DNA from: Selenomonadales bacterium
Lineage (GTDB): Bacteria > Bacillota > UBA994
Direction: 5' to 3'
Assembly: GCA_018335585.1 (NCBI GenBank)
Contig: JAGXRZ010000046.1
Coordinates: 75,832 to 115,054, forward strand
Length of the DNA stretch: 39,223 nt
Made by a program: the position numbers and the translations under genes. Positions 6,102 through 7,799 of the stretch are shown here, one piece after another; position 1 is the stretch's first letter, and every line of letters begins with the position of its first letter. Below the pieces are notes generated by a model. The model had not been told where the DNA came from and searched no databases. It worked only from the letters and a program-made list of their open reading frames with translations.

Positions 6102-6345
6102 GCCGCCAGCCGCCGGCTTTGAGCAGTGAGCCGTAGGGGCACCTAGCTGCTGGCTCCTAGCTCCTAGTAGAGGGGAGGTGCTCAGTGCCCAGTGCCCAGT
6201 GCTCAGCGCCCAGTAGAGGACGCTGAAGTCTACGGCGTACAGCATACGGCATACGGCTTACAGCGGAAGGCGGAAAGCGGAAAGCCACTGTCGTGGCACT
6301 GCGACCCCTCTCTACTGAGCACTAGGCACTGGGCACTGGGCACTC
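6102..6345. repeat. Intergenic heptanucleotide-repeat palindrome B
   Basis: This is the same composite architecture as the array near 2.7 kb. In order: AGCCGCC units (6102-6117), GGCTCCTAGCTCCTAG (6152-6170), AGTGCYY heptads (6179-6214), ATACGGC heptads (6231-6262), GCGGAAA heptads (6263-6284) and the inverse AGTGCYY heptads (6313-6345). Left and right arms are complementary. The array separates the divergent murA and riboswitch promoter regions and encodes nothing believable. Confidence 0.85.
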
Positions 6346-6388
6346 CCCCTTGCTAATTGCCTCCGGCACTGCTATTATGGAGCTGACC

Positions 6389-6480
6389 ACGAGGGGAGTA
6401 GCTTACTTGCGTCAGTCGTCATCACGTGCCATTCTTGGCACCGGCTGCGCACAAGGGTTACCTTGAAGCAAGACCTCTGT
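6389..6480 (+). ncRNA. yybP-ykoY (Mn2+) riboswitch aptamer
   Basis: The conserved elements of the yybP-ykoY family appear in order: GAGGGGAGTAGC (6391-6402), GTCGTCATCA (6415-6424), ACCGGC (6440-6445) and AGCAAGACCTCT (6467-6478). They match the known Lactococcus lactis aptamer (GGGGAGUAGC, GUCGUCA, ACCGGC, AGCAAGACCU). The closing helix pairs GAGG (6391-6394) with CCTC (6474-6477), and the segment between GTCGTCATCA and AGCAAGACC can form the second metal-binding helix. The 3' strand of the closing helix is also the 5' strand of the terminator that follows, so Mn2+ binding should prevent termination (an ON switch). Family and sensing are established knowledge; ligand and direction here are inferred from the sequence. 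Confidence 0.9.
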
Positions 6481-6503
6481 TCGCTTAGCGGGCAGAGGTT
6501 TTT
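6473..6503 (+). terminator. Riboswitch-controlled intrinsic terminator
   Basis: ACCTCTGTTCGC pairs with GCGGGCAGAGGT across a TTA loop, giving about 12 pairs including G-U, and is followed by TTTTT and then the gene. Bases 6474-6477 are shared with the closing helix of the aptamer, which makes the two structures mutually exclusive. Confidence 0.88.
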
Positions 6504-6536
6504 GTCTGCGGTTAAACGGTGTGGAGGTGTTTTAGC

Positions 6537-7799
6537 TTGAGCGATCAACTCGTAGCTATTCTGGTTTTTGCCGTTACATTTCTTTTGTTTATTCTAAACC
6601 GCGATCGGGCGCTCTTTTATGTATGGGGCGGTAGCCTAGTGCTCCTCGCGCTCGGGGTTATAACTGCTCATGACGCTTGGCAGGCCATTAACTGGAACGT
6701 GCTCGGCATCTTCTTTGGCACGATGATTCTTGCCGAGTTATTCGTCCTATCGCAAGCCCCGGCTTATCTAGCCGCAAAAATGGTAAATGCAGCAGGGAGT
6801 GCTGCAGTTGCCCTCTTAGCCATCGTGGCTTTTGCCGGCGTTCTTTCCGCCTTTATCGAAAATGTAGCCACGGTCTTTATTGCCGCTCCTCTGGCCTTTG
6901 AAACGGCAAAGCGAGTTAAGGTCTCCCCCGTACCGGTGCTCATAGCGGTCGCTATCGCCTCAAACCTGCAAGGCGTAGCTACCATGATTGGCGACTCGCC
7001 TAGTATGTTGCTGGCGACAGCCGCGCGCATGACCTTTGCGGACTTCTTCTGGATGCAAGGGAGGCCCGGCATTTTCTTCGCCGTGCAGCTTGGAGCCATC
7101 GCGGCCGGCGCCATTATGTTCTTGTTCTTTCGCGGTGCGGAGGGCAGAGTCGGCAAGAAGACGCCGCCTAAAGTCACTTCTTGGACGCCGGCACTACTTA
7201 TTGTCTTGCTCGTACTTACGCTCGCAGCATCATCCTTTATCCCCGAGCGTCCGGATGCGCTACCGGGCCTCATTACGGCCTCATTTGGCGTAGTAGCCCT
7301 CCTCTGGAACTCCCGCCGGGAGCTGTTTGCCATGGAGCTGACTAAACTAGACTGGCAGACATTCTTTTTGCTCGCCGGCTTATTTGTGCTGATAAGTGGG
7401 CTTAGCGTGTCAGGCGTCGTGGCTACCGTTGCGGACTACATGAGTGCTTTTGCCGGACACTCGGTACTTACCGCCTTCGTGCTGATTGTGCTAGTCTCGG
7501 TGGCCGTCTCCGCCTTTGTCGACAACATCCCTTACACGATTGCCATGCTCCCGGTTGTCGGTCTATTAGCCGAACGCATGGGGGTTAGTCCCCTGCCACT
7601 TCTGTTTGCCCTCGTGCTAAGCACAAGTCTTGGCGGCAATATTACGCCCATTGGCGCGTCGGCGAACGTCGTGGCCGTGGGCATGCTTAAGCGCCATGGC
7701 TACAAAGTATCTTTCTTTGAGTTCTTTAGAATCGGCTTCCCCGTCACGGTAGCCGCCGTAACCTTAGGCACGCTGTTTATTTGGTTTGTCTGGATGTAG
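6537..7799 (+). CDS. ArsB/NhaD-type ion permease under Mn2+ riboswitch control; candidate manganese exporter
   Basis: This integral membrane protein belongs to the ion-transporter superfamily (ArsB/NhaD/CitMHS type, Pfam CitMHS-like). It has about 11-12 hydrophobic helices in two inverted halves, each with the re-entrant signature: FIENVATVFIAAPL in the first half, FVDNIPYTIAMLPV in the second, plus SLGGNITPIGASANVVAVGM near the C-terminus. Family members move arsenite, Na+/H+ or carboxylates. Because its leader is a yybP-ykoY riboswitch, Mn2+ efflux is the best-supported role here, by inference. The TTG at 6537 has GGAGGTG nine bases upstream and is preferred to the longer frame from 6519, giving 420 residues. 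It appears monocistronic, facing the end of the ger operon with an 8-base gap. Confidence 0.88.
   Translation: MSDQLVAILVFAVTFLLFILNRDRALFYVWGGSLVLLALGVITAHDAWQAINWNVLGIFFGTMILAELFVLSQAPAYLAAKMVNAAGSAAVALLAIVAFAGVLSAFIENVATVFIAAPLAFETAKRVKVSPVPVLIAVAIASNLQGVATMIGDSPSMLLATAARMTFADFFWMQGRPGIFFAVQLGAIAAGAIMFLFFRGAEGRVGKKTPPKVTSWTPALLIVLLVLTLAASSFIPERPDALPGLITASFGVVALLWNSRRELFAMELTKLDWQTFFLLAGLFVLISGLSVSGVVATVADYMSAFAGHSVLTAFVLIVLVSVAVSAFVDNIPYTIAMLPVVGLLAERMGVSPLPLLFALVLSTSLGGNITPIGASANVVAVGMLKRHGYKVSFFEFFRIGFPVTVAAVTLGTLFIWFVWM

Follow-up and report, generated by a model that had tools for sequence, protein, structure and literature searches.

A yybP-ykoY-class Mn2+ riboswitch with an overlapping terminator precedes a candidate Mn2+ exporter of the IT superfamily

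Introduction

The DNA analysed here (the window) is a stretch of 39,223 nucleotides from a Selenomonadales bacterium. It contains a permease gene whose leader had been predicted, from the letters alone, to be a Mn2+ riboswitch of the yybP-ykoY class. The locus raises the question of whether the leader is truly such an RNA and, if so, whether the permease behind it could export Mn2+. The permease has the fold of the IT superfamily, whose members of known function act, to our knowledge, on anions, Na+ or neutral arsenite. The known families of Mn2+ exporters are few, and linkage to this riboswitch has so far been a good guide to them. The families of Mn efflux proteins recognized in 2026 were CDF, MntP, UPF0016/MneA and P-type ATPases, with TerC implicated, and the IT superfamily was absent (PMC13274385). 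The targets of yybP-ykoY riboswitches are diverse, ambiguously annotated transporters, and variants of altered specificity are possible (PMC7266159, a review by Breaker).

Identity of the leader RNA

The leader was analysed with a covariance model, R1, built from an alignment (A1) of 26 aptamers from other lineages, the window's own family being left out. R1 matched positions 6384–6481 of the plus strand with 50.5 bits and an E-value of 2.3e-13, while the runner-up site in the window scored 12.7 bits; the assignment to the Mn2+ (yybP-ykoY) class was thereby borne out. The structure of A1 displayed covariation in 129 double-change cells versus 46 in shuffles, all slid versions being far worse. 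Every helix of the class covaried in the comparative alignments, and for helices 2 and 3 of R1 and R2 this was so in 11 of 11 pairs. The R1 model found L1, P3, L3, P4 and P1 in the order of the consensus structure, and the joint core pattern had a single match in the window and no match in 200 dinucleotide shuffles (plus strand).

The original prediction had named the lack of an Rfam match above threshold as a ground for refutation. No such match was obtained, as RF00080 matched positions 6387–6531 (plus strand) with 15.4 bits (E = 0.019, 261 nt searched), under the gathering cut-off of 45 bits. The check itself was judged to be poor. The cut-off was reached in 6 of 199 genomes of the phylum, and a match with E ≤ 0.1 was present in 54 of the 199. 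Inspection of the matches revealed textbook elements located before UPF0016, TerC, P-type ATPase and Na+/Ca2+-exchanger-like genes. Since the majority of the clear class members in the phylum fall below it, the 45-bit limit was not taken as defining, and its use as a class test was rejected. The Rfam cut-off thus leaves out most of the phylum's Mn2+ riboswitches. An aptamer model of 105 positions, devoid of the downstream region, recovered Mn riboswitches in far more phylum genomes than the RF00080 cut-off did.

The low Rfam score is the point in favor of a chance resemblance, or of a decayed and functionless leader. This reading is refuted by the E-value of the independent model, the empty set of shuffles, the conservation of the element in all the genomes of the window's family (see below) and the occurrence of a promoter and a terminator in register with it, so that its probability can be considered practically negligible. 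The RNA, its class and its expression platform are established by sequence and comparison.

Aptamer structure and ligand

All the core blocks of the aptamer were found where the original prediction had placed them, on the plus strand. The 5′ strand of the switch helix P1 (GAGG, 6391–6394) pairs with its 3′ strand (CCUC, 6474–6477) in a helix that covaries across the class and is weak, with four pairs only. Forms from the rumen and gut have A-U, not G-C, as their second P1 pair counted from the core, which is a compensated change. The L1 core GGGGAGUAGC (6393–6402) was read directly from the sequence, and its GGGAGTA is near-invariant in A1; the GGGGAGUAG element of L1 is present. P2 is limited to about two pairs. 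The P3 arm (6409–6450), formed by GCG-U-CAG/CUG-CGC and an upper stem GUGCC/GGCAC, and the P4 hairpin (6452–6465), formed by CAAGG (6452–6456) and CCUUG (6461–6465), were derived from the fold and the R1 alignment. The L3 loop UCGUCAUCAC occupies 6416–6425, and the AGCAAGACC block, also read from the sequence, 6467–6475.

In the L. lactis riboswitch, L3 contains UCA41AUUC, and A41 (A48 in X. oryzae) donates N7 to Mn2+ (PMC6754395). The corresponding stretch in the window is UCA6421UCAC, where A6421 is the counterpart of A41 and A48, and the Mn-contacting adenosine is therefore kept. From the class and this conserved residue it follows that Mn2+ is very probably the ligand. It could be argued that the aptamer is a yybP-type variant responding to another divalent metal (Ca2+, Cd2+ or Co2+) that the permease would export, and altered-specificity yybP RNAs have been proposed (PMC7266159). 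However, neither L1 and L3 nor the Mn-contacting adenosine depart from the canonical form, and in relatives the same core is located before UPF0016, TerC and P-type ATPase genes. We regard this variant reading as quite improbable.

Promoter, expression platform and translation start

A sigma-70-type promoter-like element, TTGCTA-N17-TATTAT with an extended TG (6350–6378, plus strand; one found, versus an expectation of 0.0 from shuffles), stops some 10 nt ahead of the aptamer. Just 5′ of it, at 6240–6345, there are short degenerate direct repeats (gcatacggc / ggcggaaagcgg / gcactgggcactgggcac), and a genome of the same genus displays at this place a different short repeat, caaccgtcaaccg.

On the other side of the aptamer there is an intrinsic terminator (6473–6503, plus strand) with 12 pairs (6473–6484/6488–6499), a UUA loop and a U run at 6499–6503. 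The pairs were read from the sequence, and the hairpin was present in the minimum free energy (MFE) fold with a z of −3.6. This confirmed the 12-pair terminator that the prediction had described as sharing bases 6474–6477 with the closing helix: the CCUC of the 3′ strand of P1 lies inside the terminator stem (6473–6499), and the same P1/terminator design was observed in relatives. A simple terminator scan left it unflagged, as there are fewer than five T after the stem. Further downstream, a ribosome-binding site GGAGGUG (6523–6529, plus strand) is located 7 nt before TTG 6537, which is likely the start codon of the permease. The alternative GTG 6519 is disfavored because it lies upstream of the ribosome-binding site.

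The permease

The gene at 6537–7799 (plus strand) encodes a permease of 420 amino acids and is a single-gene unit, with murA and ger genes as neighbors, so it does not belong to an ars operon. With Pfam, the best family was CitMHS (1e-57), and ArsB, Na_sulph_symp and DctM gave weaker matches. With NCBIfam, the best match was MamN, with 89.8 bits versus a cut-off of 500; the ArsB models (NCBIfam/TIGR) gave 36.9 versus 415, 58.5 versus 457 and 43.2 versus 760 bits, and the dass model 78.1 versus 198.6 bits. The assignment of the permease to MamN, ArsB or DASS was rejected since all of them are under the curated cut-offs. A viral or phage origin was also rejected, as a search among viruses and phages found no relatives.

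The AlphaFold2 model of the permease (pLDDT 92.4, pTM 0.90, with 66 sequences in the alignment) displayed the two inverted repeats with re-entrant hairpins, HP1 and HP2, that characterize the IT fold. Its closest PDB match was ArsB (10tp, TM 0.83), followed by VcINDY and other SLC13 proteins; the best 50 matches were mainly IT members (ArsB, SLC13), with some TRAP transporters. Pfam, the model and the match to ArsB confirm the earlier description of the protein as an ArsB/NhaD-type permease.

The hairpin tips are formed by E108-N109 and D329-N330, and the helices of the model break at 105–108 and 326–329, matching the expectation for such tips. Residues N109, N143, D153, D329, N330, N368 and N377 were invariant in 66 of 66 homologues, and position 108 was always Asp or Glu. 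In a profile alignment, position 108 and, by the equivalence of the inverted repeats, the repeat-2 column (329) coincide with the serines in the SNT hairpin motifs of anion symporters, and the permease thus has (D/E)N in place of the SN of DASS proteins. The ArsB residue aligned with 108 is the Ala next to N111, and the one aligned with 329 immediately precedes N337. The DN hairpin motif is also present in NhaD and OCA2. It seems reasonable to interpret that three carboxylates at the site (E/D108, D153 and D329) would favor a cation as the substrate.

Distribution of the riboswitch-permease pairing

The survey of the leaders of homologous permeases, suggested in the original prediction, revealed that the pairing is not a peculiarity of the window. 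Each of the eight genomes of the window's family had the riboswitch immediately 5′ of the permease. Within the same class, a second family displayed this arrangement in one of four genomes (G011), and no riboswitch was found at the permease of G009, G013 and G014, although the leader of G013 contains Ns and that of G014 is cut by the contig end. When 80 permease loci from named genomes were searched with R1 and R2, the riboswitch was directly upstream of the permease in eleven, including a Peptococcaceae metagenome-assembled genome of the window's family (L092) and Butyrivibrio proteoclasticus (L142), and it headed operons or tandem copies in three others (L112, L148 and L168). The permeases of the Clostridia and relatives with the pairing are only about 40% identical.

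In the class of G379, evenly drawn (331 genomes), a close permease was present in 21, four of them with the riboswitch, G379 included; in its family (200 genomes), the permease was present in 16 and the riboswitch in three of these. With R1 and R2, no riboswitch was found at the permease of the Omnitrophota, Verrucomicrobiota and WOR-3 relatives, and most Clostridia homologues were also devoid of it. The permease family is not exclusively Mn-linked because many homologues, including all those of Omnitrophota and Verrucomicrobiota and most of those of Clostridia, lack the riboswitch.

On a quick, unrooted tree of 100 permeases the riboswitch label required at least 11 changes, and its consideration as a trait of single origin was rejected. 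Within the window's family every genome has the pairing; outside it the distribution is patchy, with many gains or losses. The recurrence at about 40% identity, together with the 11 or more label changes, is an argument for the pairing having been selected repeatedly.

Operon contexts and rival substrates

In L148 the order is riboswitch, NptA-type Na/Pi cotransporter, permease, riboswitch and P-type ATPase; in L112 it is riboswitch, NptA and permease; in L168 the riboswitch is followed by tandem permeases. The NptA-type genes behind the Mn riboswitch in these permease operons (L112:1067-2983 and L148:1016-2973) encode PF02690 plus a PhoU domain.

These operons bear on the possibility that the RNA does sense Mn2+, while the substrate of the permease is an anion, be it phosphate, citrate or another chelator, or a complex of metal and anion, so that its help against Mn2+ stress is indirect. 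The operon shared with a Na/Pi cotransporter in L112 and L148 fits this proposal, as do CitMHS being the best Pfam family and the carboxylates, sulfate or phosphate carried by solved DASS relatives. On the other hand, both SNT serines are replaced by acidic residues in the permease family, which disfavors an anion site, and most loci pair the riboswitch with the permease alone. An anion substrate is considered unlikely.

With R2, two Mn riboswitches were found in the window's genome, one at the permease and the other before a UPF0016 (GDT1/MneA-family) gene (contig C40, 100835-100949, minus strand; Rfam 11.5 bits). No MntP was found in this genome. The permease as its sole Mn exporter was rejected, since the UPF0016 gene has its own Mn riboswitch. 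In genomes G378–G382, the riboswitch of the permease was the only Mn riboswitch found, and in G380 neither MntP nor UPF0016 was found; these five were chosen for their riboswitch-bearing permease and are examples, not a sample.

Other targets were also observed. Three Mn riboswitches lie before Na+/Ca2+-exchanger-like (CaCA) genes, one of them (L044) confirmed by Pfam, and yrbG of Vibrio vulnificus, a gene of this type, is under a Mn riboswitch (PMC13274385). The original list of known targets (MntP, TerC, UPF0016 and P-type ATPases) holds as far as it goes and omits Na+/Ca2+-exchanger-type genes. In G009, G011 and G013, of the window's class, a Mn riboswitch (R2 46–54 bits) is directly before an OadB-type gene, for the beta subunit of the Na+-transporting oxaloacetate decarboxylase (PF03977, 2e-153 in G011). 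This was an unexpected target.

NhaD-type proteins of the IT superfamily are Na+/H+ antiporters, and the permease could be an NhaD-like Na+/H+ or cation/H+ antiporter, induced by Mn2+ for pH or sodium balance and not for Mn2+ export. Besides the Mn riboswitch before an OadB-type Na+ pump subunit in the same class, there are Mn targets (Alx) with a link to pH, and nhaD and oadG are targets of the Na+-I riboswitch (PMC9646797). The DN motif of the hairpin tips, however, does not separate Na+ from Mn2+, and the other Mn riboswitch of the window's genome controls UPF0016, a known family of Mn2+ transporters. A role in pH or sodium balance appears rather unlikely.

Proposed function and its meaning

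The reading that we favor, and hold to be reasonably probable, is that of a transcriptional Mn2+ ON switch before a single-gene unit for a candidate Mn2+ exporter of the IT superfamily. It is favored by the match to the independent model R1, the recurrence of the pairing, the conserved A6421, the IT/ArsB fold and the invariant residues of the permease; the operon contexts of L148, L112 and L168 fit it, no other Mn riboswitch was found in G378–G382, and the window's genome puts a UPF0016 gene under the same riboswitch and has no MntP. Against it weigh the many homologues devoid of the riboswitch, the Rfam score under the cut-off, the altered specificity suggested for some yybP-type RNAs (PMC7266159) and the anions, Na+ or neutral arsenite moved by IT members of known function. 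At low Mn2+, the 3′ strand of P1, a weak helix of four pairs, would be captured by the 12-pair terminator, and the permease would not be made. With rising Mn2+, binding of the ion between L1 and L3 (A6421) would dock the two legs and stabilize P1, and RNA polymerase would read through to the permease. The latter would then reduce the Mn2+ level of the cytoplasm, probably by cation/H+ antiport, with the invariant acidic residues E/D108, D153 and D329 placed where ArsB and SLC13/DASS proteins bind substrate and Na+. Judging by the regulation and recurrence and by the chemistry of the active site, the permease itself is somewhat more likely than not to export Mn2+.

A broader proposal is that the acidic-tip ArsB/NhaD-like clade constitutes an unlisted family of bacterial Mn2+ exporters, repeatedly recruited under Mn2+ riboswitches, and that in some Firmicutes of the gut and rumen it takes the place of MntP and MneA as the exporter under riboswitch control. 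We advance it tentatively, giving it slightly less than an even chance.

The riboswitch class and its mechanism were already known, and what may be new is the placing of this sensor before a candidate exporter whose fold is not on the current list. No paper naming an IT-superfamily target of yybP-ykoY was found in the open literature, in a search that did not cover Dambach 2015 and Price 2015. The recurrent link provides a widespread and ambiguously named CitMHS/ArsB/SLC13-like group with a function that can be tested. If true, a divalent metal would join anions, Na+ and arsenite among the known substrates of this fold.

Comparison with known systems

The window element resembles the yoaB-type yybP-ykoY riboswitch of L. 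lactis in L1, in L3 with its Mn-contacting adenosine, in P3 and P4, and in the 3′ strand of P1 being common to the intrinsic terminator of an ON switch (PMC6754395, PMC11087558). In L. lactis, stabilization of P1.1 by Mn2+ keeps the overlapping terminator from forming (PMC11087558). The window element differs from the L. lactis type in having a P2 of around two pairs, as in several other members of the phylum (L048, L057, L058 and L060), a P1 of four pairs, a score under the Rfam cut-off and a target with the IT fold.

The permease shares with the arsenite/H+ antiporter ArsB (10tp, PMC13381914) the IT fold along its whole length, the asparagines at both hairpin tips and a proposed H+ coupling. 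In contrast, the two proteins are only 18% identical, at HP1 the acidic residue of the permease precedes the asparagine instead of following it, at HP2 the neighbor of the asparagine is Asp instead of Asn, and no ars genes lie beside it in the stretch examined. With VcINDY and the SLC13 (DASS) anion-Na+ symporters, the likeness is in the fold and the architecture of the hairpin loops (TM about 0.75), but in the permease Asp or Glu replaces both SNT serines and there is an Asp in loop L1. With the magnetosome transporter MamN it shares the DN hairpin motif, but the score is far from the cut-off and no magnetosome genes were present in the part of the window examined. Finally, like MntP, UPF0016/MneA, P-type ATPases and TerC, the permease is under the same class of riboswitch, while it differs from the known Mn2+ exporters in fold and family.
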